NCBI RefSeq assembly: GCF_007746075.1 | Contig: NZ_CP036339.1 | Coordinates: forward strand, 3,005,786-3,069,785 | DNA length: 64,000 nt | DNA from: Lacipirellula limnantheis | GTDB taxonomy: Bacteria; Planctomycetota; Planctomycetia; Pirellulales; Lacipirellulaceae | Direction: 5' to 3' | In this document: positions 13,893-53,300 of the stretch, piece after piece | How the letters are laid out: every line of letters begins with the position of its first letter | Position numbering within the stretch: position 1 is the stretch's first letter | Made by a program: the position numbers and the translations under genes | The notes under the pieces: model-generated | The model's input: only the letters and a program-made list of their open reading frames with translations | Told to the model about the DNA's origin: nothing | The model's database searches: none

Positions 13893-16800
13893 GTGCAGAC
13901 GAAGCATTTGTTGGCCATTGCCGTTCTTGTCGGCGAAATGTCGGGGTGGCTCGCCCCTCGTCGAGCCGTCGCGCAAGGAGAGGTCGACGCGATCGCCGCA
14001 GAGCCGTCGGCAAACGCCGGCGACGACTCAGGCGATCGCGAGAACTTTCAGATCCATGCCGGATGGCAACCGCTATTTAATGGCCGCGATTTGAACGGGT
14101 GGCGCGCGTTCTTGCAGCAGGATGGTCAACGCGCCGACCCCGCCGGCATGATTGCCGTTGAGGACGGCGTGCTTCGCCTCAACGGCGACTCGGCCGACGG
14201 CAGGCGCGTCGCGAAGGGCTACATGGCGACCGAGCAGGAATATGAGAACTACCATCTCAGGCTTCAGTATCAGTGGGGACAAGCGACGCTCTCGCCGCCG
14301 TCAGCCCCCCGAGATTCGGGCGTGCTCTACCACGTGACTGGCGCCGACGCGCCGCAGCCGATGAGTCTTCAATGCGAGATCCAAGAAGGCAACGTCGGTG
14401 ACTTACTGACATCGCCCGGGCTTCAGTTGGATTCGTGGGTAGACCCCGCGTCGAAGGAGTTGAAAGAGAGAACGTTTCGAGATCCGCGTTTTGGCGGAGA
14501 GCCGGCTGTGTGCGGAGGCGCTGGCACTGCACGTCAACTGACAAGCGGCATGAATGAGTTATTGGGATGGAACACGCTGGAGATCATCGCTCACGGGAAG
14601 AGCGTGACTCACATCCTCAATGGAAAGATCCTAAACCAGGGCGAGAATGTCAGAAGCGCGGACGCGGCTGATCCTCAACGGTCGCCGCCGGTCACTAGAG
14701 GAAAGATCGCACTGGAGATCGGAGGGGCGCCCGTCCAGTACCGTAACATCGAGATCAAACAACTCGACGCGGAGAAACTAGTCGACGACCGGGCAGATGA
14801 TGCGCCATCGCGGACAGCATTGGACCTGCGGGTCGGCGCGTCGGCCGTCGACTTGCGCAGTGACGGGACGATGGTCATCGCGGGCGGAATCGAACCTCAC
14901 TATGCGGCCGAGCAAGAGGGGCAACTGCGAGCCGTCGCGGCGGTCATCGAGCGGCCCGGCGACGCAAAGCTTGCCATCGTTGCGTGTGACGTGCTGTGGG
15001 TTCCGCGAGACTTGGCCGACGCGGCCATCGCCGAGATTGAGCGGAAGACGGGAATCTCCGCGAATTGCGTGCTCATCAACGCCACGCATACGCACCATGC
15101 GCCCAGTACGGCGCCAGCGCATGGATTTGGCGTGGCGCCGGAGTTTCGGGAAGAGTTGCAGCGGGGAATCGTGCGCGCGGTCGAAGAGGCGAATTCGCGC
15201 CTGGAAGGGGGCGAAGCACAACTGTATTTCCACTTAGGCCATGAACACACGGTGGGCAGCAATAGTCGTCAATTGCTCGAAGACGGCGCCATCACGTGGA
15301 GCGGGCAGCAACTACCTAGCGAGAAAGCCAGGCCCACCGCCCCTTTTGATCCGCAATTGCCGATTCTCGACTTTCGCGACGCAGCAGGAAAGACTCGGGC
15401 GCTGCTGTTCAATCATTCAACGCACACGATCGGCACGAGGTCGGGGCGTGACGTCAGGTCGCCGAGCTTTTACGGTCTGGCGGCGCAGGAGCTCGAGCAG
15501 GAGTTGGGCGGAGTCGTGAGCTTCTTAGAAGGCGCGTCTGGCTCCACGCACAATGTGGCTCCTATCGTGCCCGTCGCCGACTGCATCGAACGGATCAAGG
15601 GGGCGGTACGCGAAGCTCGCGCCGAGGCGTCGGCTCGTCCGGTATCTTATCTCGCCGGCGCGCGGCGCCCGTTTAAATTCCACGTTCGCAAGTTCAATAA
15701 CGCCGAGGAAGACGCCAAGATTGCTCGCTACATGACCAAGCACGCGCCGCAGTCAGCAGAACGCGTTCGCGAAGTCTTCGCCGAGATGCGGCGACAATTG
15801 CGTGAACGGCAAGGAGCGGAGCAGGAAACGTGGATCCAGGCGGTGGTGATCGGCGATGTGGCGATTGTCGGCGTCCCGGCTGAATACTTCACCGTGCTTG
15901 GTCTGGAGATTAAGCGCCGTTCGCCCTTTGAACATACTTTCGTTGCGGAGCTGGCGAATGACTGGATGGGGTACTTGCCTGACCGCGAGGGACAGCGACT
16001 GGGCGGCTATCAGACCTGGATGGGACTCCATTCGTTCGCCGAGGAAGGCACGGGCGAACGCATGGCGGACGAAGTGGTCGCTCTGCTGAACGAGTTGGCG
16101 GCGGATGCCGGTGCGAACAAAACGTCAGCGCTACGACCGTCAGGTTCAGAATCACAGTCGCTGGGCGACGAGAGCGTCAACTCGCGAGGTCCGCAGTCGC
16201 CCGCCGCAGAACAACGCAGCTTTCAGCTTGCCGACCCCAATCTGCAGGTTGAATTGGCCGCGTGCGAGCCCGACGTCGCCAGTCCTGTGGCCCTGGCTTG
16301 GGACGCCGCCGGCCGCATGTACGTCGCGGAAATGGGAGGCTATCCGACGACTGAACGGCGGGGTCGCATCCAACGATTGGAGGATGTCGACGGCGACGGC
16401 AAATACGAGAACGCGGTCACGTTCGCCGATGGGCTAAACTTTCCGACAAGCGTGATGCCTTATCGAGAGGGAGTGCTCGTGACCGACGCCCCCGACATTC
16501 TTTACTTGGAGGACGCCGACGGCGACGGTCGAGCCGACGTGCGGCGGGTCGAATGGACGGGTTTCGGCGCCGGCTCGCAGCAACTGCGGGCCAACTCGCT
16601 CCATTGGGGTCTCGATAATTGGATCTATGTCGCTAACGGCCGCTGCGACGGCGACGTGCGACGTCCCGATGCGCCGGCGGATCGAGCGACGTCGATCCGA
16701 GCTCGCGATTTTCGCTTTCATCCGCTCACGCGGGCCGGGGAGGCGACGCTCGGCCAGTCGCAGTTCGGCCAGGCCCACGACGCCTGGGGAAATCGGTTTC

Positions 16801-19142
16801 TCTCGTGGAACACCGTGCCAATACGTCATGTTTTGCTCGAAGACGTCGACGTACGCCCGTTCCCGGCGGCCGCCGCCGAGGCAGTGACTAATCTCGCTGC
16901 GCCCAGCGATACTGGCCAGGTCTTCCCGGTCAGCCCGGCTCCGCGTCAGTTCAATACCGAACAAGCCAACTACTACAACGCCCTGTGCGGGCTGACGATC
17001 TTTACCGGCGACGCTCTCGGACGGCAGTATGCGGGCAATGCCTTCGTCTGCGAATCGCTCACCAACTTAGTCACGCGCCGCCGCCTAGAACCGAGCGGGC
17101 CGACGTTCGTCTCGCGTCGCGACGAGCAGGAAGCTAATCGCGAGTTCCTGGCCTCAACAGACAATTGGTTCCACCCCGTCAACTTGGCCACTGGGCCGGA
17201 TGGCGCACTTTATCTCGTCGACTTTTATCGCGAGTTCGTCGAGCACCCGATCTACGTGGCTGACGCGGCGGTGGCGGCCAACGTTCCTTGGGGAAACGGC
17301 GCCGAGCATGGTCGTATCTGGCGGATTACCGGAATTGACGCCGACGCGTCGGCCGCTGATCGACGACCGCAGTTGCACCTCGCCAGTAGCGGCAAGTTGG
17401 TGGAATTTCTTGCGCATCCTGTGGCATGGTGGCGAACGACGGCCCAACGGCTGCTTGTGGAGCGGCAAGATCGAACGGTCGTGCCGAAACTTCGTCAGCT
17501 AGTGGCCCAGTCTCCATCGCCGCTGGGTCGCCTGCACGCGATGTATGCGCTGGACGGCCTTGATGCGAATCAGGAGCCGAACCAGCTGGAGGATCAATCT
17601 GCCGAGAGACAGTCGCGCTGCCTCGACGTGGCGTCGCTGCAAATCGCGCTGCGCGATCCGGAGTCGAACGTGCGTCGTCACGCGGTCCGCTTGGCGGCTG
17701 ACCGAATTGGGGAAGCATCGCCTGCGGCCGCCGCTTCCCCGGAGGCGGATCGCTCCGTCGACCTGTCGGAGGACGTCATCTCGCTGCGGAACGCGCTGCT
17801 GGAAATGACGAATGATCCCGATGCGGCGGTGCGTTTTCAGCTGGCGCTGGCCATCGGCCCGCACGCTGGATCAGGCGCTTCCTCGGCGCTGGCGAAACTG
17901 CTGGACCAAGATGATTCGCCGCTCATGCAACTGGCAGTTCTCTGCGGGATTGGGCGCCATCCTTGGCCGCTGATGCGCGAGCTCCTGGAGGGCGCCGACC
18001 GCACGAGGCAGCATGCCGCCTTCCTGGAGCAGGCGAGCGAGCATATTGGATCCCAGGCGGATGAGAACGTTCTGGCGGAGTGCATCGACTGGATGACGGC
18101 CGACCTCACGAGGTCGACCCGCGCTGACGGGTTGGCCGCGCTCGCGGGATTGTCGCGCGGGATGTTCTCGCGCGGAGTTTCTCTGCGTGATCCGAGATTA
18201 CCCCCTGAACTCCTGCCGGAGCGCACCGCGGACCGTTTACGCGAGGGCATTCGCATTGCCGCGGCGCTCGCCGAGGATCGTGGCCAATCCGTCGAGGATC
18301 GCACCCGGGCGACGGTCGTTGCGGCCAATGGCGCGCCCGACGAGGTCGAGCGAATGGTCGCCGCACTGGTTCAGCCGTCTCATCCGCAGGCGGTGCAATC
18401 CGCGGCGATCTGGGCAGCCGCGCACGCCAACTCCCCCGAGGCATGGAATGGGCTATTCAGCCAATGGACCAAGCACACAACGGCGACGCGCCAGGAAATG
18501 CTCAACCAGGCGCTTCGTTCAACTGCCGGCGCCCATGCGCTGGTCGCCGCTCTCGAAGCAGAAATCGTCTCGGCAGAAGAGCTTCCTGCGAGCACGAGGG
18601 AGGTGATGGGGCAGTGGCAGGATGAATCGTTGCGGCACCGCGCGGAGCCGCTGCTGGCCGCGGTTGTGCGGGGCGACCGAGCTGAAGTCCTGGCCAGGTA
18701 CGCTGACGTCGTGACCCGTCGGGGCGATGCGGCGCGTGGCGCCGCCCTCTTTAAGCAGAACTGCCAGACCTGCCATCCCATCCAGGGCGTGGGCAGGAGC
18801 GTGGGGCCCGACCTGGCGAGCGTTTCAGCGCGGCGCAGCGATTTATTGCTCGTCGACATCCTCGATCCGAGCCGTCAGCTGTCGCCGGATTTTGTGAGCT
18901 ATCTGGCGGTGACGAAAGACGGGCGCGTCCTGAACGGCGTCATCGCCGCAGAGACAGCGGAGAGCGTGACGCTTCGTCGCGAAGAGGCCCAGCAAGAGAC
19001 CATTGCTCGCAGCCAGCTCGAACAGTTACGGGCCTCGGGAAAATCCTTGATGCCCGACGGGCTGGAAAAGAATCTTACCCCGGATCAACTTGTCGATTTG
19101 TTGGAGTTTCTGCACCGTCCCGACGTGCATCTCCTTCAATGA
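13893..19142 (+). CDS. Exported five-part fusion: DUF1080, ceramidase-like, propeller dehydrogenase, HEAT, PVC-type cytochrome c
   Basis: 1,749 residues from GTG at 13893, with AAGGG seven bases upstream. Signal peptide ~1-28. Residues ~55-290 are a DUF1080/3-keto-disaccharide hydrolase-type domain (GWQPLFNGRDLNGWRAF; ending APVQYRNIEIKQLD). Residues ~310-735 resemble neutral ceramidase (NATHTHHAPSTAPAHGFGV, FNHSTHTIGTRSGRDV, GDVAIVGVPAEYF). Residues ~770-1150 form the PVC-type dehydrogenase propeller (VALAWDAAGRMYVAEMGGYP, LEDVDGDGKYENAVTFADGL). Residues ~1150-1600 are helical HEAT-like repeats. The end is a cytochrome c with haem motif C1624-Q-T-C-H1628 and the LMPDGLEKNLTPDQLVDLLE segment that carries the likely distal Met ligand. 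It should act outside the cytoplasm, probably linking degradation of a glycosylated or lipid substrate to electron transfer. Substrate unknown. Confidence 0.9.
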   Translation: MQTKHLLAIAVLVGEMSGWLAPRRAVAQGEVDAIAAEPSANAGDDSGDRENFQIHAGWQPLFNGRDLNGWRAFLQQDGQRADPAGMIAVEDGVLRLNGDSADGRRVAKGYMATEQEYENYHLRLQYQWGQATLSPPSAPRDSGVLYHVTGADAPQPMSLQCEIQEGNVGDLLTSPGLQLDSWVDPASKELKERTFRDPRFGGEPAVCGGAGTARQLTSGMNELLGWNTLEIIAHGKSVTHILNGKILNQGENVRSADAADPQRSPPVTRGKIALEIGGAPVQYRNIEIKQLDAEKLVDDRADDAPSRTALDLRVGASAVDLRSDGTMVIAGGIEPHYAAEQEGQLRAVAAVIERPGDAKLAIVACDVLWVPRDLADAAIAEIERKTGISANCVLINATHTHHAPSTAPAHGFGVAPEFREELQRGIVRAVEEANSRLEGGEAQLYFHLGHEHTVGSNSRQLLEDGAITWSGQQLPSEKARPTAPFDPQLPILDFRDAAGKTRALLFNHSTHTIGTRSGRDVRSPSFYGLAAQELEQELGGVVSFLEGASGSTHNVAPIVPVADCIERIKGAVREARAEASARPVSYLAGARRPFKFHVRKFNNAEEDAKIARYMTKHAPQSAERVREVFAEMRRQLRERQGAEQETWIQAVVIGDVAIVGVPAEYFTVLGLEIKRRSPFEHTFVAELANDWMGYLPDREGQRLGGYQTWMGLHSFAEEGTGERMADEVVALLNELAADAGANKTSALRPSGSESQSLGDESVNSRGPQSPAAEQRSFQLADPNLQVELAACEPDVASPVALAWDAAGRMYVAEMGGYPTTERRGRIQRLEDVDGDGKYENAVTFADGLNFPTSVMPYREGVLVTDAPDILYLEDADGDGRADVRRVEWTGFGAGSQQLRANSLHWGLDNWIYVANGRCDGDVRRPDAPADRATSIRARDFRFHPLTRAGEATLGQSQFGQAHDAWGNRFLSWNTVPIRHVLLEDVDVRPFPAAAAEAVTNLAAPSDTGQVFPVSPAPRQFNTEQANYYNALCGLTIFTGDALGRQYAGNAFVCESLTNLVTRRRLEPSGPTFVSRRDEQEANREFLASTDNWFHPVNLATGPDGALYLVDFYREFVEHPIYVADAAVAANVPWGNGAEHGRIWRITGIDADASAADRRPQLHLASSGKLVEFLAHPVAWWRTTAQRLLVERQDRTVVPKLRQLVAQSPSPLGRLHAMYALDGLDANQEPNQLEDQSAERQSRCLDVASLQIALRDPESNVRRHAVRLAADRIGEASPAAAASPEADRSVDLSEDVISLRNALLEMTNDPDAAVRFQLALAIGPHAGSGASSALAKLLDQDDSPLMQLAVLCGIGRHPWPLMRELLEGADRTRQHAAFLEQASEHIGSQADENVLAECIDWMTADLTRSTRADGLAALAGLSRGMFSRGVSLRDPRLPPELLPERTADRLREGIRIAAALAEDRGQSVEDRTRATVVAANGAPDEVERMVAALVQPSHPQAVQSAAIWAAAHANSPEAWNGLFSQWTKHTTATRQEMLNQALRSTAGAHALVAALEAEIVSAEELPASTREVMGQWQDESLRHRAEPLLAAVVRGDRAEVLARYADVVTRRGDAARGAALFKQNCQTCHPIQGVGRSVGPDLASVSARRSDLLLVDILDPSRQLSPDFVSYLAVTKDGRVLNGVIAAETAESVTLRREEAQQETIARSQLEQLRASGKSLMPDGLEKNLTPDQLVDLLEFLHRPDVHLLQ

Positions 19143-19465: not shown

Positions 19466-22400
19466 TCAACTCCCCAGCCGCGAAAAGACGAAATCGATGG
19501 CCGTGAGATTGACTACGTCGCTGACATCCAGACCACGTCCGGCCACCTGATCGTAGCCGTCGATGTCATGGCGAAATCCTGTGCCGCTGAACGTGGCTTG
19601 GTTGCCCGTGCCGGCAATCGTGTCGACGCCAGACGAGCCATAAAGGTCCGCGCGATCGACGCCGCCAGCCGTGGCATGACTCTCTGTAGCGGAAAACCCT
19701 TCCGCTTCGTTGAAAAAGCCCGCTCCTGTGAGAATAGCGCGGACGCTGCCGGCGATGAACTGGTCGTTGCCGGCGGAGTCGTAGAAGATTGCACGATCAC
19801 TGCCGCCGGCTTGCGACCAAGCCTTGGTCTTGTCAAATCCGCGCACTTCGTGAGCGAATCCGCTGCCCACGAAGGTGGCGCGGTTCGACCAGGCCGTGAA
19901 CGTGTCGTTGCCGGCGGAGTCGTAGAACTCGGCTTGGTCGACGCCGCCGGCCGTGGCGATGGCAATGACCTGTTCGAAGCCGTCGGCCTGATTCCAGTAA
20001 CCGCCTCCGGTGAGGACGCCCCGAATGGCGCCTCCGTAGTACGCATCGTTCCCCGCTGAATCGTAGAGGGTCGCCGTATCAGCGCCGCCGCCGGTGGCGA
20101 AGGCCCTGGCCGTTTCGAAGCGTCGGACTTCGTGGGTGAACCCTGTGCCGGTCATCACGGCCCGATCGCTCCACGCCGACCAAGAGTCGTCGCCAGCCGA
20201 ATCGTAGAACGTGGCGACGTCCGTCCCGCCGCCGTCTCCGTAGGTGGTCGACTTGGCAAAGCCCCGGGCGTCGTGAGAGAAACCCGCGCCCGTGAGCGTC
20301 ACCCGGTTCGACCAAGCCGTCACGGCGTCGTTGCCGGCAGAGTCGTAGAACTCCGCTTGGTCCGCACCGCCGGCGTTCGAGTAGACGATCGCGCTGTCAA
20401 ACCCTTCCGCTTCGTTGTAGAAGTTGGCTCCGGTCATGACGCCGCGGACGGCTCCGCCGTAATAGCGGTCGACTCCGGCCGAATCGTAGAATGTCGCTGC
20501 GTCGACGCCGCCGGCGGTGGCGATCGCCTTGACTGCCTTGAAACCACGCGCCTCGTGAGCGAATCCGCTGCCGACGAGAGTAGCGCGGTCCGACCAACCG
20601 GTGAACGCGTCGTTCCCGGCGGAGTCGTAGAACTCCGCTTGGTCCGCGCCGCCTGCGGTTGAGTAAGCAATCGCGCTGTCAAACCCTTCCGCGACATTGT
20701 AGAAGTTGACTCCGGTCATGATGCCGCGGAGAGCTCCGCCGAAGTAACGATCGGCGCCGGCGGAATCGTAGAACGTCGCGGCGTCGACGCCGCCGGCGGT
20801 CGCCATCGCCTTGACGGACTTAAAGCCACGCGCCTCGTGAGCGAATCCGCTGCCAACAAAGGTGGCGCGGTTCGACCAGGCCGTGAACGTGTCGTTGCCG
20901 GCGGAGTCGTAGAACTCGGCTTGGTCGGCGCCGCCGGCCGTGGCGATGGCAATGACCTGTTCGAAGCCGTCGGCCTGATTCCAGTAACCGCCTCCGGTGA
21001 GGACGCCCCGAATCGCGCCTCCGTAGTACGCATCGTTCCCCGCTGAATCGTAGAGGGTCGCCGTATCGGCGCCGCCGCCGGTGGCGAGGGCCTTAGCCGT
21101 TTCGAAGCGTCGGACTTCGTGAGTGAACCCTGTGCCGGTCATCACGGCCCGATCGCTCCACGCCGACCAAGAGTCGTCGCCAGCCGAATCGTAGAACGTC
21201 GCGACGTCCGTCCCGCCGCCGTCTCCGTAGGTGGTCGACTTGGCAAAGCCCCGGGCGTCGTGAGAGAAACCCGCGCCCGTGAGCGTCACCCGGTTCGACC
21301 AAGCCGTCACGGCGTCGTTGCCGGCAGAGTCGTAGAAGTTGATTTGATTAAAGCCGCCGGCCACCGCATCAGCCGTGGTCTGGTCGAAGCCCTCGGCTTC
21401 GTTCCAATAGCCGACCCCGGCCATAATTGCGCGGACTTGGCCGGCGATGAAGGTGTCGTCACCCGCTGAGTCCGTGAACGCGGCCGTATCGACGCCGCCC
21501 GCCGTGGCCCAGGCTTTGGTTTTGGCGAATCCTTGGGCTGAGAGGACTTGGCCGCCGGAAAGCGTCAAGGTCATGCGGTCGGGCAAGGCGGCGAGCGAGT
21601 CGTTGCCCGCCGAATCGTACAGGTTGGCGACGTCGGCGCCCCCCCCGCTGACCGCCGTTTGAGTTTCGACGTTGGAGACCGTAACGCTGTAACCCGTCCC
21701 AGTGAAGAGCGATTCGGTGCTTCGAAGGGTGACCGATTCAGCGGCCGTCGTCCCTTGAAAGGCAAACGAGTCAGCGCCGCCGAGGCCATTGACGACGAAG
21801 CTGTTGACCGAGGTCGTACCCCAGCGATACTCCAGGCCATTGACGACGATGACGCTGGTAGAACCCGCGGAGAATTGGAATGTGTCAGTCCCGGCTGTGC
21901 CGTTCACCCACACTTTGGAGCCAACTTGAGAGACCAGGTTCACCAGCTTCACGTCGACGTCGCTGTTGGTCCCCGCCAAGCGGACGTAGTAGGTGACGCC
22001 GGCGACGACCGTGGCGTCGACTCGGGACGTCCCGGCGCCAGCAACGCCGCTGGCGATGAGGTTGAGGTTCGCGTCGTGAAGACTGACGCTGACGCTGCCG
22101 CCCGCCGCATTGAACGACCCCAACGCGCTCAAGAGACCGTTCTGGGAGGCGACGACCCTGAACCATTTTTCGCCGGCGACGCTGACGTCATTGACCTGCT
22201 TCGAATCGACGTTCCCTAGATCGGTGAATTCGAACGTACTGGAGGGGGTGAGCGAGGCGGTGAGCGTGTACTTGCCGATGCCCGACGTCGACGCGAGTCG
22301 GACGGAATAGACCTGACCAGCCTGGACGGCGAACGCGACCGTTCCCGACGGTTGACCAGCGAGGGGAGAGGCACCGGTAACCTGCCATTGGGCGGTCATC

Positions 22401-23704
22401 GCCCCGCTGGTTGATGCCGCAAACTTAACGACGCCGTTTGTCGACGCCGTGAACTTGAAGAAGTCGGCGTCGTTGAGCGTTCCAATGGCGCCTTGCCGAT
22501 TGATTGGAGTCGTCAACGTGCCGAGGTCAAGCGCGGTTGCCGTCGTCGAGCCGACGTCGTCCGCCGGCATGATCGAATCGATGGCGCGCGCGAGGTTAAG
22601 ACGCTTGTAGGTCAGGCCGGTGACCGCGTCCACGACGGAGTCGGCGGTGGCCATCATTTTGTCGTAGATCACATCCTGGTTGATCGTCACGACGCCCGCG
22701 AATTGCATCGCTTGGCGAATCAGGACGCTGGCTCCGGCAATGTAAGGCGTCGCGAGATGAGTTCCGTTCCGCGTCGCAAAATCGTCGGCGGCCCCGTTAT
22801 TGTTGCCGGCGTAATCGGGGACCGTACTGACAATGCCTTCGCCAGGCGCCGCAATGCCGCGGGTATGACGCTGGCTGAAGAAGCTGAGATTGCCTGAACC
22901 ATCGGTCGACATGACCGGCACGACGTTGGGACTGGCGGCCGGATAACTGAGCCCGGGGGCGTTGTACTGAGTGAAGCTGTTGCCTGCCGCCGCCACGATA
23001 AAGATGCCGTCGGCCTTGAGCTGGGCGAATTCGTCTTCCAACGTGGACCAATTGGGCACGGTGGTGGCGTTCCACTGGGCGACGCCTAGCGACAGATTGA
23101 CCGTGGTGATGGGGTTGGCGAACGCGTTGCGGTTGGCATGGACCCATTGCAAGGCGCTTTCGAGCCAGCTGAAGTAGCCTTCGCCAGCGTCATTGACGAC
23201 GCGGAGCCCGACGAGATCAACGCCCGAAGCGACGCCCGGATACGTCGAGTCGCTGCTACCGATGACGCCCGCGACGTGGGTGCCTTGGGACCCGCTCGGA
23301 CCGTCGTCGTAGGGATTCCCATCGTTTTCTTCCGTGAAGTCCCACCCGCCGACGACGCGGTAATTGGCGCCCCAGCCGCCGCCCAGGGCGGCGTGGTTCC
23401 AGGCGATGCCGCTGTCGATGACTGCGACTGTCTGGCCCGCGCCGGTGAGGCCGTAGTTGCTTTGGACGCTATACCAACCGGTTTGGGTGTGGGCCCCAAC
23501 CAGCATCGGCGACAGGCTAGCGGCGCCTGCGTCCTGGGGCGCGACCCAGAAATCCGGTTCGACGACGACCGCGTGATCAACAGGAGGCGTCGCGACCGTC
23601 GTCGTCGTTGCTTCGAGCGCGCGACGAGCGGCGGCGATCAACGAGCCGGCGGACATCACTCGACGATCTTCGAGCTGCTCAATCTGAGGGGCGCGACGAG
23701 GCAC
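19466..23704 (-). CDS. Subtilase-like surface protein lacking the catalytic Ser, with fifteen 47-residue repeats
   Basis: 1,412 residues from GTG at 23704. The N-terminus IEQLEDRRVMSAGS matches the planctomycete extracellular motif (Planc_extracel). The S8 domain spans ~75-375. The Asp motif VAVIDSGIAWNH, the His motif GSQGTHVAGVIGS and the oxyanion Asn in VAAAGNS are present. Where GTSMATP is expected, however, the sequence is NGTHLATPYIAGA, with CAT (His) in place of Ser. Proteolysis by the usual mechanism is therefore unlikely. A PPC-like segment follows (~380-560, DDADFFKFTASTNG type), then beta-rich sequence, then from ~680 fifteen repeats built on FYDSAGND...WS-R-...TG-GF-HE...GF...A-A-GG-D. 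No PEP-CTERM tail. It may serve as a binding or structural protein. Confidence 0.88.
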   Translation of the reverse strand: MPRRAPQIEQLEDRRVMSAGSLIAAARRALEATTTTVATPPVDHAVVVEPDFWVAPQDAGAASLSPMLVGAHTQTGWYSVQSNYGLTGAGQTVAVIDSGIAWNHAALGGGWGANYRVVGGWDFTEENDGNPYDDGPSGSQGTHVAGVIGSSDSTYPGVASGVDLVGLRVVNDAGEGYFSWLESALQWVHANRNAFANPITTVNLSLGVAQWNATTVPNWSTLEDEFAQLKADGIFIVAAAGNSFTQYNAPGLSYPAASPNVVPVMSTDGSGNLSFFSQRHTRGIAAPGEGIVSTVPDYAGNNNGAADDFATRNGTHLATPYIAGASVLIRQAMQFAGVVTINQDVIYDKMMATADSVVDAVTGLTYKRLNLARAIDSIMPADDVGSTTATALDLGTLTTPINRQGAIGTLNDADFFKFTASTNGVVKFAASTSGAMTAQWQVTGASPLAGQPSGTVAFAVQAGQVYSVRLASTSGIGKYTLTASLTPSSTFEFTDLGNVDSKQVNDVSVAGEKWFRVVASQNGLLSALGSFNAAGGSVSVSLHDANLNLIASGVAGAGTSRVDATVVAGVTYYVRLAGTNSDVDVKLVNLVSQVGSKVWVNGTAGTDTFQFSAGSTSVIVVNGLEYRWGTTSVNSFVVNGLGGADSFAFQGTTAAESVTLRSTESLFTGTGYSVTVSNVETQTAVSGGGADVANLYDSAGNDSLAALPDRMTLTLSGGQVLSAQGFAKTKAWATAGGVDTAAFTDSAGDDTFIAGQVRAIMAGVGYWNEAEGFDQTTADAVAGGFNQINFYDSAGNDAVTAWSNRVTLTGAGFSHDARGFAKSTTYGDGGGTDVATFYDSAGDDSWSAWSDRAVMTGTGFTHEVRRFETAKALATGGGADTATLYDSAGNDAYYGGAIRGVLTGGGYWNQADGFEQVIAIATAGGADQAEFYDSAGNDTFTAWSNRATFVGSGFAHEARGFKSVKAMATAGGVDAATFYDSAGADRYFGGALRGIMTGVNFYNVAEGFDSAIAYSTAGGADQAEFYDSAGNDAFTGWSDRATLVGSGFAHEARGFKAVKAIATAGGVDAATFYDSAGVDRYYGGAVRGVMTGANFYNEAEGFDSAIVYSNAGGADQAEFYDSAGNDAVTAWSNRVTLTGAGFSHDARGFAKSTTYGDGGGTDVATFYDSAGDDSWSAWSDRAVMTGTGFTHEVRRFETARAFATGGGADTATLYDSAGNDAYYGGAIRGVLTGGGYWNQADGFEQVIAIATAGGVDQAEFYDSAGNDTFTAWSNRATFVGSGFAHEVRGFDKTKAWSQAGGSDRAIFYDSAGNDQFIAGSVRAILTGAGFFNEAEGFSATESHATAGGVDRADLYGSSGVDTIAGTGNQATFSGTGFRHDIDGYDQVAGRGLDVSDVVNLTAIDFVFSRLGS
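19848..20350 (-). repeat. Near-identical 503-bp block, copy 1 (inside subtilase-like gene)
   Basis: Matches 20835-21337 at an offset of exactly 987 bp, with about ten differences by eye. 987 bp is 329 codons, or seven 47-residue repeat units, so the two blocks are in register with the protein repeats (units 10-13 versus 3-6). Confidence 0.85.
20835..21337 (-). repeat. Near-identical 503-bp block, copy 2 (inside subtilase-like gene)
   Basis: Partner of 19848-20350. Similarity drops sharply beyond 21337, where the sequence turns from the shared AGAGTCGTAGAA into GTTGATTTG. Confidence 0.85.
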
Positions 23705-24534: not shown

Positions 24535-25103
24535 ATCGCTTTGCGGGTTCTTCTCGCGCAGTTTGGCCGCTCCAGCTTGCTTCTTCGCTATAGAATTCTC
24601 TCTTTACGTGACGGCGTCCAAGGGAAGGTAGGGATTCAACGAATTGCAGAAAGTGTCGGTGCGACCGAATTCTCGTCGATCGTGCCTATCAACCGGCGTG
24701 GATATCTCCCAGTAGCTGTAGAGCTTGCATTCGCCCTTTCAGCAAAATGTGACAGTTACGCCGATTTACTCACGGGACGAAACTCATTGCCCCGATAGAC
24801 TCTTTGTGCTATCCTCGAAGCACTAAGACAGCGAAGGCATATGCGAGAGGCTTTGCCGATTGCGAGCGTTCCCTGGTCCGGCGGGATCCAGTGACGTCAT
24901 CAATCAGCCCTTCTTCTTGTTGACCTCTGCCCTTCATCCTAACCGGCTTCCGTGTCGGTCTTCGGCGATGTTGATCCACGGTGTGGATCAGATTGCTTTC
25001 TTACGTTGAGTTCCCGGTAACGGGGCTCTAATGCGTCACCCGATCGTAGTTGCACGGTGCGCGGGTGCGCTTTTCACGAGAACTGCGTGCAGGAGAATGT
25101 TAC
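24535..25103. other. Intergenic stretch with likely long leader of cold-shock gene
   Basis: No supported gene. The part next to the cold-shock gene contains a perfect dyad at 24972-24990. An open frame at 24496-24798 is a shadow of the recombinase remnant. Confidence 0.4.
24972..24990. promoter_or_regulatory. Perfect dyad upstream of cold-shock gene
   Basis: TGATCCAC-GGT-GTGGATCA, two 8-base arms around 3 bases, 114 bases before the cold-shock start codon. It could be an operator or a hairpin in a long leader; no T-run follows. Confidence 0.35.
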
Positions 25104-25298
25104 GTGTCGCAAGGTACTATTAAGAAGTTGACTGACAAGGGTTTTGGCTTTATTCAGGGCGACAGTGGAGATATTTTCTTCCACTCCTCCGCCGTTGAAG
25201 GGGCTGGTTTTGACAGCCTCTACGAAGGCCAAGCCGTGCAATACAACGAAGGCATGGGTCCCAAGGGGAAGCGTGCTGAGAATGTTCGGATTGGCTAA
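25104..25298 (+). CDS. Cold-shock domain protein (CspA family)
   Basis: 64 residues, a single OB-fold nucleic-acid-binding domain acting as an RNA chaperone. I chose GTG at 25104 because AGGAG lies eight bases upstream and the resulting start (VSQGTIKKLTDKGFGFIQG) matches the family; the ATG at 25050 would add an unrelated leader. Both RNA-binding motifs are intact: RNP1 KGFGFI and RNP2 DIFFHSS. The Trp common at position ~10 in CspA is replaced in IKKLTDKGFGF. It ends with KRAENVRIG, where most members have AANVRL. A strong terminator follows at 25335. Confidence 0.92.
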   Translation: MSQGTIKKLTDKGFGFIQGDSGDIFFHSSAVEGAGFDSLYEGQAVQYNEGMGPKGKRAENVRIG

Positions 25299-45160: not shown

Positions 45161-45811
45161 ATGACGTCGCCATCCGCGGTGCCCACGACGTCCGCCGCCG
45201 ACGGCCCGACCAGCTCCACGGCCGTCCGCATCGACGCCGCGAAGCGCGGGTGCCACGAATCATTCGGCGTGTTGGCGGAGCACTGCCGACAGTATCTGCT
45301 GCTGGTGGCGTCGGGCGAACTTCCGCACGATCTGCGCGCGAAGATTGCGCCCTCGGACGTCGTCCAAGAAACGCTAGTGCGAGCGCAGCAGGGAATCCAT
45401 CGATTTTCCGGAAACTCCGAAGCGGAGTTTCGCTCGTGGATTCGACAGATCCTCGTGCACTACGCGGCCCACGTCGGTCGGCACTATCGACAAACGGCGC
45501 GGCGCGACGTGGCCCGCGAGGTGAGTTTGGACGCGCCTGGGCGCTGGCGCGGGCCAATCGAGCAACTCGTCGCTGACTTCACGCCGCCGGTGGCGCGACT
45601 GGAGCGACTCGATCAGGCGACGCTGCTCGAGCGCGCCCTGGAACGAGCCCCTGCCCCCTATCGTCGCGTGCTCATGCTCCGCACGGTGGAAGGGTTGCCG
45701 TTCGCCGACGTCGGCGAGGTGCTGGGCGTCTCGGCGGAGGCGGCGCGAAAGCTCTGGGTGCGTGCGATTGCGGCTCTGCAGCGGGAGATCAAGCGTGACC
45801 AACTTTCGTAA
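45161..45811 (+). CDS. ECF sigma factor paired with kinase
   Basis: 216 residues. Region 2 (~45-110) has LPHDLRAKIAPSDVVQETLV and FSGNSEAEFRSWIRQILVHY. Region 4 (~150-210) is ERLDQATLLERALERAPAPY, with VLMLRTVEGLPFADVGEVLG and VSAEAARKLWVRAIAAL as the helix-turn-helix. It belongs to the planctomycete ECF type whose promoter selection is thought to be controlled by the neighbouring Ser/Thr kinase. The stop codon (45809-45811) overlaps the kinase gene start at 45795, so both are co-translated. Confidence 0.93.
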   Translation: MTSPSAVPTTSAADGPTSSTAVRIDAAKRGCHESFGVLAEHCRQYLLLVASGELPHDLRAKIAPSDVVQETLVRAQQGIHRFSGNSEAEFRSWIRQILVHYAAHVGRHYRQTARRDVAREVSLDAPGRWRGPIEQLVADFTPPVARLERLDQATLLERALERAPAPYRRVLMLRTVEGLPFADVGEVLGVSAEAARKLWVRAIAALQREIKRDQLS

Positions 45812-48800
45812 CGGATCCGCCGATGGGGAACTCGCGTCGTCCGGCGCGGCCGATTTGGCCTTGGCGGGGTTCGACGATCAGACCTCGCCGATCATCGAAA
45901 CGTTGCTTGTCGAAACGGGCGAAGCGCTCGCCCAAGGTTCGCCGCTCCCGACCGTTGACGATTTGCACCTCTCGACGGAGGAACTCGTCGAGTTCCAGGA
46001 GCTCCAAGACACGCTCGTGCTGCTCGATCAAGCGCGACGCGACGGATGGCTGGGGCGGGCGGCGACGCTGGCCGAGAAGGGCGCCTGGCCCGACGCAGGG
46101 CACGAGGGGAACGCCCCCGACGATGGCCAACGAATCGGTCGCTTTGAGATCGTGCGGGAACTAGGACGAGGGGGACACGGGGTCGTGTTTCTCGCGCGCG
46201 ACCCGCGGCTGCGGCGGCTGGTGGCGCTGAAGGTCGCTCGTCCCGAAAGCTTCGTCTGTGATGATCTCCGTCACCGGTTTCAACGGGAAGCGGAGGCGGC
46301 GGGCAGTTTGCACCATCCAAACCTCGTGGAAGTGTTTGAAGCGGGCGAAGATGGGCCAATTTGTTTTATCGTCTCCGCCTATTGCAGCGGGCCCACGCTG
46401 CAACATTGGCTGGTCGCCGCCGGCGTGCAGCCGACGTGCCGCGAGGCGGCAGCGCTGACGGCAGCCCTCGCCGACGGCGTCGCTCACGCCCATGCCCACG
46501 GCATCTTCCATCGTGACGTCAAGCCAAGCAACGTGTTGCTGGAGTCAGCGCAGCTCGATCCCGCGCGAAGCCTCCCAGCCGCGTCGCGACCCCTGACGTC
46601 GCTCAGCAGTTACACGCCGAAGCTCGCCGATTTCGGACTCGCCAAATTGCTCGAGGGCGGGGACGACCGCACGCGCACCGGCGCCGTGCTGGGAACGCCG
46701 GCCTACATGGCGCCCGAGCAGGCCGGCGGCCGCGCCGAACTCATCGGGCCGGCGACCGACGTTTATGGACTGGGCGTGTTGCTCTACGAATTACTGGTCG
46801 GCTCGCCGCCATTCCGAGGCGAAAGCGACATCCAAACGGCGCGGCGCGTGTGCGAGGAGACGCCCACCGATCCGCGCCGCCTGCGCAGCGCGATCGACGC
46901 CGATTTGGAAGCGATCTGCCTGCGTTGCCTTGAGAAGGATCCGGCGGCGCGGTATCCGACGGCCGCCGCCCTGGCGGAAGATCTCGCGCGTTATTTGGGC
47001 GGGAAGCCGACGCTGGCTCGTCCCGTGGGACGACTGCAGGCCGCGGCGCGCTGGATCAAACGTCGGCCGTTGCCGACGGCGCTACTGGCCGTGAGTCTGG
47101 CATTGGTCGCGAGTCTCACCATCGGCGGCTGGTGGACGAGTTTGCGCAACGAGCAGGCCCTGCGCCGCGAAGCGGCCCTGCGGTCGGCGGCAGAGACGCA
47201 CAAACGGCACGCGGAGGCGAGTTCCGTCGAGGCGCGTCGGCTCCTGTACGCCAGCGACATGCGCGTCGCCCATCAACTCTACCAGAACGGTAATCTGCGC
47301 GCCGCGCGCCAATTGCTCCTGTCGCACGCGCCGCCGCCAGGCGGAGAGGACCTGCGAGAGTTCGCCTGGCATTTTTTGGATCGCCGTACGCAGCCCGAAA
47401 TGGCCACGCTGCGCGCCCACGCCGGCGGCGTCCGACTGGCGGTCATGAGCGGCGACGGCGCCTATCTGCTCACCGCGGGCCACGACGGCGAAGCGAAGCT
47501 TTGGAATACGGCCGACCGCCAAGTGCTGCTGACCCTGCCGCTAAGCGACGTGCGCGTCGGAGCCTTCTCGCTTGATAACGGGCGATTCGCGGTCGCCGAC
47601 GGCGAGGCCGCGTACGTCTACGCGGTCGCCGATCTGGAGCATCCGCAACGACTGCCGCACGCCGCCGGGGAGCCGACGGCGCTCGCGTTCTCCGCTCCGC
47701 GCGTCTCGCCGCAGGAGGAGCTATTGTGTTTGGGGGGCCGATCGGGGCGCGTCGCGCTCTGGCGTACGAGCGACGGCCGTCCGCTCCTGGAGACCAGCGC
47801 CGGCGACCAGCCGATCACGGGCGTCGCGTTCTTGCCGAACGACGACCTCCTGATCGCCGCGGGGAAGCGGATCACGTTGTCGCCGACCGCCGATCGGGCC
47901 GCCTCGCGGACGTGGCTCGAAGCCGATGCGGATATCGGCTGCATCGCGGCCTCGCGGGGCGCGGGGCAAGTCGCCGTCGGGCTGGCCGATGGTCGCACGC
48001 TACTTCGCGCGAGCGGCGCACCAGCGCCCGACGTCGAGCTTCGCCACCCAGCGGCAATTAGCGCCGTGGCGTTCCATCCCCATGGTCGACTGCTGGCCGT
48101 GGCCAGCGTTGATGGCACGACGAAGGTCTGGGACGGGTCGACGGCGGCCTGCCGCGTCGAGTTCGTCGGGCATGTCGATCGCGTCAGCGCCATCGCCTTC
48201 TGCCACAACGGCGCTCGGCTGATGACCGCCAGCGACGACGGGACTGTGAAGCTCTGTCGTACCGAAGACGAGTATTTTACGGCAGTCGACTGGCCCAACT
48301 TCGCCGTGAACGCGATTGATTTTTCCAGCGACTCTGGGCTCTTGGTGTGGACTGGCTATCCCACTTCCGGCGGCGTCGCAGGCTACACGGGCATCGTCGA
48401 ACTTCCAACTCTCGCGGCAGATTTTCTGAACGGCGCCGCCGGCGTCTTCGCGGACCTCCAGTTCCTCTCGACGCCGCGCCTTTTCTTGGGGGTCAATGCC
48501 GGGGGCGCGCGGGCCGAGATTTCAGTGACGCAGTCGCCCGTCGTCCCGCGCGGCTTCCCACGGCCGGCTGATCAAACCGGCTGGATGCCCAAGCTGACGG
48601 CAACCTCCGATGGGGCGATCTCCGTCTGGGGGTCTTGCTATCCGCTGCATGTGGCCGACGCTCAAAACAACGTCAAGCTTCTGGGAGCGGACGAGACGGC
48701 TGAAGTCATTGAACTGCGGATCAATCCGGCTCACGAGCGCGAGTTGATCGTCGCCAGCGACAAGACGATCGCCGTTTGGGACCTTCAAGCGCGTCGCTGC

Positions 48801-49856
48801 ACGAGCCGCTGGGCGATGCCTGCTCCGACCAAAGGATTCGACTTCATCGATCGCACGACGATTGCCGTCGGCGGAGCCGACGAAGTGCTGCGGATCGTCG
48901 ATGTACGCACCGGGAATTTCGTCGCGGAACTCCCCAGCAACGATGGCGCGATCAACAGCGTGGCCATCCACCCCAACGGGCGAACCGCGGCGCTGGGACA
49001 TGCAAGCGGGCAGATCTCGCTGTGGGACCTCTTGGTGCGGCGGCAGCTGCTGACGCTCTCGGGCCACGGTGGCAAAGTCACCCGCCTGACGTTCTCTCCC
49101 AACGGCCAGTTTCTGGCCAGCGGCAGCGAGCCGGGGCAGGTGTTTATTTGGTCGGCGGGGGCGGCGAGCGGGCGAACGCCGTCAGGCGCCAAGGCGATGA
49201 TCAACGAGGGGTCGACGGAGGCGCTCGTGACGCGGGTGACGCCGGTCGTCCATGCGGCGCACCAGTCGCCGCGGATCCCGTCGAGCGTCCCGTTCGATCT
49301 GGCGAACCTGCGCGAGAAATTTCGCCGCGTCCATGACTATGCCAAGTCGATCGGTTACTCGGCGGCGTTCCCGACCGGCATTGATCGCGAAACGGACGAA
49401 GGCGTTTCCATCGGCGTTGTTGCGCTCAAGCGAGGCGTCTGCCAGTGGCACGAAGCGCTGGGGACGGAGGTCGCCAGCGCCATCAGTGACGCCCCCGGCG
49501 CCGACGGGCCGCTACTGCATCAACGGCGGGCGGCGGCGTGGGGCCAGGGGCGCGGGTACGCGCTGGCCTTCGCCAATTTTCATCAAGCGATGCTGGTTGA
49601 TCGGCTGATCTACGGAGTCGCCCAGTTCGACGCCTCCGCGTTCACCGCTGACCGCATCAAGGTCAGCCCCTCCAGCGACCCTCGAACGCTCAGCGAGCGG
49701 CTGCGCGTCGTCAATCGCGCAGCCCTCGAGCGAGGATTTCCAGGGGCGCTACCGACCTTTGACGATGACGAGTCGGCGGGAACCATCGGCGCAGCGTTTT
49801 TTCTGCCGGCTGCCGCCGAATCGCTGAGCGTTCCCGCGCATTTGCTGAAGAACTGA
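45795..49856 (+). CDS. Membrane Ser/Thr kinase with WD40 propellers and a triplicated C-terminal module
   Basis: 1,353 residues. GTG at 45795 has GGGAG upstream and overlaps the sigma factor gene. The kinase domain (~114-400) is complete: RFEIVRELGRGGHGVVFLAR, Lys in LVALKVARPE, IFHRDVKPSNVLL near 238, LADFGLAKL and YMAPEQAGG. A single membrane helix (LPTALLAVSLALVASLTIGG) near 430 is followed by a coiled stretch and WD40 repeats from ~535 to ~1125 (FHPHGRLLAVASVDGTTKVW; LTFSPNGQFLASGSEPGQVF). The last ~190 residues contain three related units centred on YAKSIGYSAAFPTGIDRE, WGQGRGYALAFANFHQAML and ALERGFPGALPTFDDDE. Presumably the propellers and these units sense a signal and the kinase acts on the sigma factor. 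Confidence 0.93.
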   Translation: MTNFRNGSADGELASSGAADLALAGFDDQTSPIIETLLVETGEALAQGSPLPTVDDLHLSTEELVEFQELQDTLVLLDQARRDGWLGRAATLAEKGAWPDAGHEGNAPDDGQRIGRFEIVRELGRGGHGVVFLARDPRLRRLVALKVARPESFVCDDLRHRFQREAEAAGSLHHPNLVEVFEAGEDGPICFIVSAYCSGPTLQHWLVAAGVQPTCREAAALTAALADGVAHAHAHGIFHRDVKPSNVLLESAQLDPARSLPAASRPLTSLSSYTPKLADFGLAKLLEGGDDRTRTGAVLGTPAYMAPEQAGGRAELIGPATDVYGLGVLLYELLVGSPPFRGESDIQTARRVCEETPTDPRRLRSAIDADLEAICLRCLEKDPAARYPTAAALAEDLARYLGGKPTLARPVGRLQAAARWIKRRPLPTALLAVSLALVASLTIGGWWTSLRNEQALRREAALRSAAETHKRHAEASSVEARRLLYASDMRVAHQLYQNGNLRAARQLLLSHAPPPGGEDLREFAWHFLDRRTQPEMATLRAHAGGVRLAVMSGDGAYLLTAGHDGEAKLWNTADRQVLLTLPLSDVRVGAFSLDNGRFAVADGEAAYVYAVADLEHPQRLPHAAGEPTALAFSAPRVSPQEELLCLGGRSGRVALWRTSDGRPLLETSAGDQPITGVAFLPNDDLLIAAGKRITLSPTADRAASRTWLEADADIGCIAASRGAGQVAVGLADGRTLLRASGAPAPDVELRHPAAISAVAFHPHGRLLAVASVDGTTKVWDGSTAACRVEFVGHVDRVSAIAFCHNGARLMTASDDGTVKLCRTEDEYFTAVDWPNFAVNAIDFSSDSGLLVWTGYPTSGGVAGYTGIVELPTLAADFLNGAAGVFADLQFLSTPRLFLGVNAGGARAEISVTQSPVVPRGFPRPADQTGWMPKLTATSDGAISVWGSCYPLHVADAQNNVKLLGADETAEVIELRINPAHERELIVASDKTIAVWDLQARRCTSRWAMPAPTKGFDFIDRTTIAVGGADEVLRIVDVRTGNFVAELPSNDGAINSVAIHPNGRTAALGHASGQISLWDLLVRRQLLTLSGHGGKVTRLTFSPNGQFLASGSEPGQVFIWSAGAASGRTPSGAKAMINEGSTEALVTRVTPVVHAAHQSPRIPSSVPFDLANLREKFRRVHDYAKSIGYSAAFPTGIDRETDEGVSIGVVALKRGVCQWHEALGTEVASAISDAPGADGPLLHQRRAAAWGQGRGYALAFANFHQAMLVDRLIYGVAQFDASAFTADRIKVSPSSDPRTLSERLRVVNRAALERGFPGALPTFDDDESAGTIGAAFFLPAAAESLSVPAHLLKN

Positions 49857-50373: not shown

Positions 50374-53300
50374 ATGTGCAAAGCAGTTCAGCTTGGCCTC
50401 GTCGCGGCCATGTTCGCGTGTTTCAGCGTCGGTCCCCGGGCGGCGCTGGCGCAGATCAGCGGCCCCTGGCCGCCGCAGTTCGGTGCCTACTTTTGGCAGG
50501 GAAACAATCGTGGCGACGGGGATGGAAATACGGGGGTCTGGAACAACTGGGACGGCCGGTGGCAGATCGATTCTCCCCCGCCTCCCGTGGTGATTACCAC
50601 GCTTGCCGCTCAGGACGGCGACACGCTGATCCTCGATGATACGTTCGTGAACGACGAGGATCGTCACAGCGTCAGTTTCGGCGGCCACGCCCTGCCGTCG
50701 AGCAGCATGCAAGTGCATCTCAACGCCGCCTATTCCGGCGGCTCGCTCGCGTTCAACTCCTTGCTGTTCCAAAACAGCAGCAATGTTCACGGACCTCTGG
50801 CGCCGTACCCCATCGACGTGTCGGGGACGACGATCGACGTCGATTCGCTCCAGGTCACGGCCCTCAGTGATGCGATTACCTTCGCCGGGGCGACAATTGA
50901 CGGCAACAGCGTCTCGTTCAGCGGGACCGAGTCCGCGGGATTTCCGCTGCCGGTCGGCCAACGCGTGATGATCAAGGTCAACGGCGGATCGGTCGACGCC
51001 GACTACTTCAAAATGACAGGCAACTTCGTCGCCGAGGCCGACGGCGCCGCGCTGAGCGCGCTGGTGGCGCAGATTGGCTTTGCCGACACGCCAGGCGCGG
51101 CCGCGCCGGAGCTGCACCTGAAGGGACAAGCGGAGTTCACCGTCGGCAACGACCTCGTCGTGGGCTTTTCAGGTCACGGGCAAATTGACATGGCGGAAGG
51201 TTCGCAATTACATGGCGAGAACATGAACGCCCTGGTCGGTCTCGACGGCGTGGGCTTCGTCCATGCGTCGGGCGAGTCGACGATCGATCTCCACCATCTC
51301 GAAATCGGCGTCCGGGCGGCGGGGTTCGTGTTTCTTGACACCGGCGCCGCGATGACGACCGACGGAGCGAAACTGGGTCTGGTGGTCGGGTTCGACGGAA
51401 CCGCGAACCTGGAAAATGGCGGCATCTGGACGACCGACGACCTGACCCTCGGCCTCAGCGGCAACGGGTACGTCGACGTGCGCAGCAACAGCACGCTGAC
51501 GATCAACGGCGCGGGCGTTCTGGGACAGGACCCGCTGGGCCGCGGCGTGGTGAACATGTACGGCGCCGACTCGCACTTGGTCTTGGGCGAGCAGGGGACG
51601 CTCGAGATTGGCCATCTGGGCAAGGGCGAGCTGAATCTGTACCAGGGCGCCACGTTCACGTCGGCCGGCGACGTGACGCTCGGCAAGCTGGCCGATAGCA
51701 CGGGAATCGTTCGCGCCGAGGGCGACGGCTCCGCGTGGACCGTCGACGGCGACCTAGTGCTCGGCGAAGACGGCAACGGCCGTCTGGAGCTGAAAGAGGG
51801 CGGCGCCGCGACGATCGCGGGCAAACTCACGATCGGTCTCAACGCAGGGAGCGATGGACTGCTCCTGCTCGATGGCGAAGACGTCAGCATCTCAACCAGC
51901 GATAACCTCGTCCTCTCCGGCGAAGGGCATGGAGTAATCGAGCTGCGGAATGGCGCCACGCTAAACCTGAAGGAAGTCCTCATTGGCCAGACGCAAACGC
52001 CGGGCGTCCAGGGCGAACTGACTGTCGACGGCCCGGGGTCGCAGCTCACGTCAACCGGCGAGTTCGTCGTCGGCGATGCGTCGAAGGGCGTCTTCAACGT
52101 CACCACAGCGGGGACGGTCACGACCAACGGCGCCGCGACGCTGGGGCGCGAGGGGGGCAGCGAATCCCAGGTCAGCGTCTCCTCCGAAGAGGGCCGCGCG
52201 AAGTGGACCGTCAACGGCGACCTGACGGCCGGCGCGAAGGGAATCTCGTACGTCCTGATTGAGAACGACGGCGAGATTAGGGTCAATGGGAAGCTGGCAC
52301 TCGGCGTCGACGAGGGGTCCGAGGGCGTCTTCGAACTCGACGGCCAGCAGGCGTCGCTGACGACCGACGGCTTGGCGATCGGGGCCCGTGGGACCGGCAT
52401 CTTCAATATTCGCCACGGAGCCAAGGTCGTTGCCGGAACGACCGTTATCAGTTCAGTCCACAGCGCGACGGGCGTTTCGCCGCGCGGCGAGATGAACATC
52501 CGCGACGAGGGCTCCGAATTCCGAGCGCTTGGCGCACTGACCGTCGGCGCCGAACAGGGGCGCAAGGGCGTCCTCCGAGTCGGGCCCAAGGGGACGGCGA
52601 TCGCCGACGCCGGCGTCACCATCGCTCGCGATCCCGGCAGCATCGGGGAAGTCGAGATCAACGCCGATCCCGAGACGAGCGAGTCACGCGCCAAGTGGAC
52701 CGTCGGCGGCAATCTGACCGTTGGCGACGGCGGCGAGGGGAGCTTGTTTGTCGTCAACGGCGGCCGCGTCGCCGCTGCCAGTGCGACGACCGTCGACTTG
52801 GCCAAGAAGGCCGGATCGCAAAGCGTCGTGCAGATCGACGGCGAAGCCGCCATGGCTCAAACGACGTTCACCCATGGCGGAAATTTACGCGTCGGCGTGC
52901 AGGGGGCGGCGAACCTGTACGTCCGCACCAATGCACTGCTGCAAACGGCGGGCGACGCCACGATTGCTGAGCAGCCGGGCTCCGATGGCGATGTACGAAT
53001 CCTCGGGACCGACGCCGAGTGGAAAGTCGCCGGCGATCTTAAAATCGGCAAGGGCGATTCGCCGTCTCTCACCGTGCTAGATCACGGCAAGGTCACCGTC
53101 GCTAAGGAGTTTGTGGCCGACTTGCAAACTGGAAAAACGGCGACCATCGACCTGTCCGACGGGGCAACTGTGCAGACGGGCGCTGTGGACATTCGCGGGA
53201 ACGTCAACGTCACGCTCGCTAATCCCAACACGAAATGGACCGCCGAACGATGGGACATGCGCGGCGGAGAGCCTTCGTCGCTGCGCATCATGGACGGCGC

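Follow-up and report, generated by a model that had tools for sequence, protein, structure and literature searches.

A putative secreted subtilase pseudoprotease with a predicted C-terminal beta-solenoid in Lacipirellula limnantheis

The subtilase-like gene on the minus strand at 19466..23704 of the window (the whole stretch of 64,000 nucleotides of Lacipirellula limnantheis DNA analysed here) most probably encodes a secreted, catalytically dead subtilase pseudoprotease, a paralogue that would bind the substrate or partners of an active copy (we put the probability of this reading at roughly 0.8). The open reading frame starts with GTG, runs uninterrupted to its stop codon and specifies 1412 aa, comprising an S8-fold domain and C-terminal repeats. 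Residues 88-354 (22643..23443, minus strand) match the Pfam profile Peptidase_S8 (PF00082: E-value 9.6e-30, 104.3 bits vs a cut-off of 21.8). The AlphaFold model of residues 21-610, built with 27 sequences, has a pLDDT of 87.3, and Foldseek searches with the model retrieved subtilisins at TMt 0.87-0.89, with an rmsd of 2.4-3.0 for most hits to subtilisin BPN' and Carlsberg. By profile and by modelled fold, the protein belongs to peptidase family S8.

Catalytic columns were assigned by alignment of the S8 domain to subtilisin BPN' and compared with the columns of the family. Two functional positions are kept: Asp97 (GAC, 23414..23416) corresponds to Asp32 and Asn242 (AAC, 22979..22981) to the oxyanion-hole Asn155, so that the Asp (VIDSG) and oxyanion (AAAGNS) sites reported in an earlier note, made from this DNA alone, are both borne out. 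The same note had described a change of the nucleophile motif GTSMATP to GTHLATP through a CAT codon, and this too holds: the motif reads NGTHLATPY, with His316 (CAT, 22759-22757, i.e. 22757..22759 on the minus strand) in the place of Ser221, a position occupied by Ser (AGY codons) in 131/133 family domains. A complete fold without nucleophile had been proposed on these grounds, and in the AlphaFold model and Foldseek comparison the fold is indeed kept. The note erred in taking GTHVAG as the retained catalytic His. Of the two His in the S-H-G-T-H of BPN', the earlier one is the catalytic His64; the window protein has S-Q-G-T-H, and the His of its GTHVAG aligns with the non-catalytic His67; the true base position is occupied by Gln140 (CAA, 23285..23287), where 132 of the 133 family domains carry His. 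Two of the three triad residues (His and Ser) are therefore gone, and Asp97 and Asn242 remain. No alternative Ser that an alignment could place at the active site was found at or near the nucleophile position (RNGTHLATPYIAGAS), and the Ser that the family carries three residues before the nucleophile is replaced by Asn. The substrate-cleft motif Ser-Leu-Gly (BPN' 125-127) is retained. The active-site observation is real and stronger than first noted, with one wrong assignment corrected. An S8 fold that has lost one or more triad residues defines an S8 pseudoprotease, and judged from its residues and model the window protein is one; neither peptide cleavage nor self-processing is expected of it.

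Residues 7-20 (23645..23686, minus strand) form a planctomycete extracellular N-terminal motif (IEQLEDRRVMSAG), and the paralogue encoded in the same genome starts with the same motif (VEQLEDRRVMSAD). The export motif claimed earlier is thus present as a sequence resembling Planc_extracel, with a PF07595 score (14.4 bits, E-value 0.032) under the cut-off of 25.5, and the protein is probably exported. C-terminally of the S8 domain, the model shows beta-sandwich linker domains (approximately residues 390-600; 21905..22537, minus strand) that consist nearly entirely of strands and gave no match in a Pfam search. Residues 590-1412 were modelled as a single extended beta-solenoid in which each 47-aa repeat contributes about five strands (pLDDT 87.6). 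The fifteen repeats (FYDSAGND...) counted in the earlier note stand, each of 47 aa, and span approximately residues 691-1396 (19517..21634, minus strand): fourteen units are found with a repeat pattern, and NQINFYDSAGND, near residue 786, brings the count to fifteen. A Pfam search of the repeat region gave no match. RTX-type beta-rolls were the best structural hits to the solenoid, but with TM below 0.2, and we do not claim membership in this fold. Within 20500-22000 (minus strand) a block of seven repeats appears to have been duplicated at a distance of 987 nt, the two copies sharing a 444-nt core of over 98% identity, in a recent expansion of the solenoid. Most family members end, after the repeats, in a short tail V/A-D-Y/F-x-F-x-x-x-G; in the window protein (..DVVNLTAIDFVFSRLGS; 19469..19528, minus strand) its invariant D and F columns are present. 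This tail could be a sorting or export signal. The window encodes another secreted repeat protein of 1412 aa (50374-54612, plus strand), with a dockerin-like stretch (PF00404) and a PEP-CTERM-like C-terminus (VPEPPAIWL...SRRR).

A scan of GTDB contigs, together with genome searches at the genus, family and order level, yielded 148 non-redundant matches, of which 133, all from Pirellulales, cover the domain fully or almost fully and share over 45% identity with that of the window protein. The combination Asp/His/Asn/Ser is found in 131 of these 133 domains (and in 141/143 complete domains of a wider set), the exceptions being the window gene (Asp/Gln/Asn/His) and one further sequence, L075 in genome G016 (Asp/His/Asn/Asn). 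No orthologue sharing the His at the nucleophile position was found in 6 genomes of the genus, 44 of the family, about 400 of the order and the GTDB contigs, and none among the sequences searched carries the same two losses; this doubly changed state is seen in one species, and the His, whose conservation in homologues the earlier note had proposed to check, is unique to the window gene among those found. Among 54 near-invariant columns (at least 97% conserved) only three are changed in the window domain, namely H140Q, F170V and S316H. Family members encode the catalytic Ser by AGC or AGT and the His by CAC or CAT, hence His to Gln takes one step and AGT to CAT two, via AAT (Asn) or CGT (Arg). 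Because these intermediates are the residues found in the other two non-Ser copies (L075 and L079, see below), the codon path seems to fit a position that drifted once catalysis no longer constrained it, and not one at which His itself was selected for.

L075 (G016 C1:3512608; locus G016:C1:3508000-3522000, ORF in frame 0) is full-length and has Asn (AAC) in place of the nucleophile Ser; an intact copy (L074) is present in the same genome. On the tree it is the sister of its own intact copy L037, by which criterion its Ser loss is an event independent of that in the window gene. Like the window gene it is an extra, full-length paralogue without nucleophile; unlike the window protein it keeps the catalytic His, and it comes from another genus of the same family. 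L079 (4811-6493, plus strand; genome G035) is a 5'-truncated relic with Arg at the nucleophile position and with the Asp and His parts missing; an ORF with an HNH/RuvC-like Cas9 sequence, judged by eye, lies about 3 kb upstream of it (32-1795). All three dead copies occur in genomes with other, intact copies: they make up 3/12 copies in five multi-copy genomes vs 0/122 elsewhere (p ~6e-4, a value to be taken as a guide since genomes were sampled and some are incomplete).

The intact paralogue in the L. limnantheis genome (L002/L065, at C1:4241860) is 63% identical to the window protein over the S8 part. It shares with the window protein, as do the Pirellulales orthologues, the LEDR-type N-terminus, the S8 domain, the beta-sandwich linker, the DSAGND repeats and the conserved C-terminal tail, but unlike the window protein these sequences have Asp, His, Asn and Ser intact. 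The gene neighbourhood of the paralogue, unlike that of the window gene, is conserved in the genus: an epimerase gene and the one after it lie downstream, and both accompany the intact copy in 5/5 other genus genomes. We found no orthologue of the window copy in these five genomes; its neighbouring genes did not turn up next to any of the family members whose loci were fetched, so there is no sign of synteny, and its annotated neighbours include no subtilase. In a tree calculated with the active-site columns masked, the window copy groups in one clade with members of the genus and of genus g8, without a firm position inside it, and has an end branch of 0.29. The gene is convergent with a plus-strand gene for a 1749-aa fusion protein (13893-19142) that combines 3-keto-disaccharide hydrolase, ceramidase-like, DUF7133, HEAT and cytochrome c domains. 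Elsewhere in the window, a protein kinase domain is fused to many WD40 repeats (45762-49856, plus strand), and a small cold-shock-like protein (25050-25298, plus strand; judged by eye) is encoded by DNA that has two partial copies in the genome, which look like ordinary paralogues.

The main rival to the pseudoprotease reading is that the gene is a redundant duplicate in early decay: drift would recently have cost it its catalysis, and it would serve no separate function and in time be lost. The L079 relic demonstrates that copies of this family do decay, the window copy lacks orthologues in the genus, and its branch is somewhat longer than those of its sisters. Relative-rate counts revealed no significant difference with g8 outgroups, while with outer outgroups the window lineage is up to about twofold faster (e.g. 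51 vs 26 unique changes), an excess that would also follow from partial relaxation. Against decay speaks the frame of 1412 codons, intact and free of stops, in which at least three nucleotide changes fell in the two catalytic codons and one further change at the 54 near-invariant columns. The S8 domain has dN/dS of 0.11-0.20 against three genus sisters, hence at most 0.20, compared with 0.04-0.14 for pairs of active orthologues and 0.14 for L075 and its active sister, all of these S8 values being rough, as synonymous divergence is high. Internal repeats 282 nt apart (pS 0.415, pN 0.07) give a dN/dS of 0.12. The recently duplicated repeats still appear to be under purifying selection, with 5 synonymous and 3 non-synonymous changes over the 444 nt of the 987-nt duplication vs a ratio of about 1:3 expected without selection. 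These values show purifying selection on the paths to the sisters and between the repeats, the Gln/His state itself being seen in one copy only; the gene cannot accordingly be an old pseudogene evolving neutrally. The recent duplication has a synonymous divergence of 0.045, and at least three changes in two catalytic codons are unlikely within such a span; for this reason, selection probably continued after the catalytic loss, with the proviso that conversion between repeats could blur the dating. We consider early decay quite unlikely.

A second alternative, raised in the earlier note as a "different chemistry", is that Asp97, Gln140 and His316 together make up a novel site, catalytic or metal-binding, for hydrolysis or transfer by another mechanism. 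In its favour, the residues replacing two members of the triad are polar, and Asp97 and the oxyanion Asn are kept. However, neither a nucleophile nor a general base is left at the triad positions, His316 lies two single steps from AGY via Asn or Arg and looks like the outcome of drift after loss, and the Asp/Gln/His arrangement is conserved in no other sequence found; to our knowledge, no S8 variant with a site of this type has been described. Because the general-base His is lost as well, this possibility has become much less likely than it first seemed, and we regard it as very improbable. Finally, an artefact of sequencing or assembly affecting the two active-site codons, conceivable as the state is seen in one genome only, is scarcely credible, as at least three base changes (at least two from AGY at codon 316, one at codon 140) would have to fall, without frameshift, in codons separated by about 530 nt in a two-contig assembly, and precisely in columns that carry both catalytic residues in 131/133 family domains.

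As to the role of the pseudoprotease, the earlier note had suggested binding or scaffolding. The retained fold, the absent nucleophile and the purifying selection agree with this proposal, which had been made with the loss of the His base overlooked. In our view, the gene is a supernumerary paralogue, outside any synteny, of an S8 protease with a housekeeping role in Pirellulales; it has lost its general base (His to Gln) and its nucleophile (Ser to His) and kept the fold, the oxyanion Asn and the Ser-Leu-Gly cleft. The S8 domain would now serve as a binding module, most likely for peptides or partners also encountered by the active paralogue; it would work as a decoy, a shield or a regulator and be presented on the C-terminal beta-solenoid as on a stalk. 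By analogy with known pseudoproteases, we infer that the protein could act on the active paralogue or on its substrates.

Dead subtilase copies are already known from a few other organisms, and the window protein is a further case. CspC and CspA of Clostridioides difficile are subtilase pseudoproteases of spore germination whose prodomain is not self-processed (PMC6636752, PMC12880746), and the two form a signalling heterodimer (PMC12880746). CspC has T170 and G485 at the His and Ser positions, keeps the Asp (D105) and has an active paralogue, CspB (PMC6636752). It resembles the window protein in its subtilase fold, in the replacement of both His and Ser, in the retained Asp and in the active paralogue, and is its direct precedent. 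Csp pseudoproteases are further marked by a jelly-roll insert within the subtilase domain and by linkage to an active Csp gene. Unlike the window protein, CspC is a spore protein from a conserved operon of a different lineage, for which no beta-solenoid has been described, whereas the window gene stands alone, has no known partner and carries Gln and His as replacements; here CspC was compared by its published description. PIMMS2 of Plasmodium is an S8-fold protein without the HGT and GTS motifs (named as the catalytic His and Ser motifs) and was judged non-catalytic but functional (PMC5520436). It is likewise an S8-fold pseudoenzyme without HGT/GTS motifs; it differs from the window protein in being a eukaryotic membrane protein, and the P. 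berghei protein keeps triad-equivalent residues, two of which the window protein lacks.

A joint literature search for planctomycetes, pseudoenzymes and proteases found no paper, and the secreted proteins of Planctomycetota are mostly uncharacterised. The window gene offers a testable bacterial case of a secreted pseudoprotease beside an active paralogue, with at least one independent loss in the same family. It is conceivable, if doubtful, that Pirellulales repeatedly make dead partners from spare copies of a secreted housekeeping subtilase (by Ser to His and His to Gln here, by Ser to Asn in G016), and that these regulate or shield what the active copy of the same cell has as substrates, a pairing like that of CspB and CspC that arose independently in Planctomycetota. 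If the dead copies do regulate the active one, the principle known from C. difficile CspB/CspC would extend to Planctomycetota; if they do not, they would illustrate the ordinary fate of gene duplicates.
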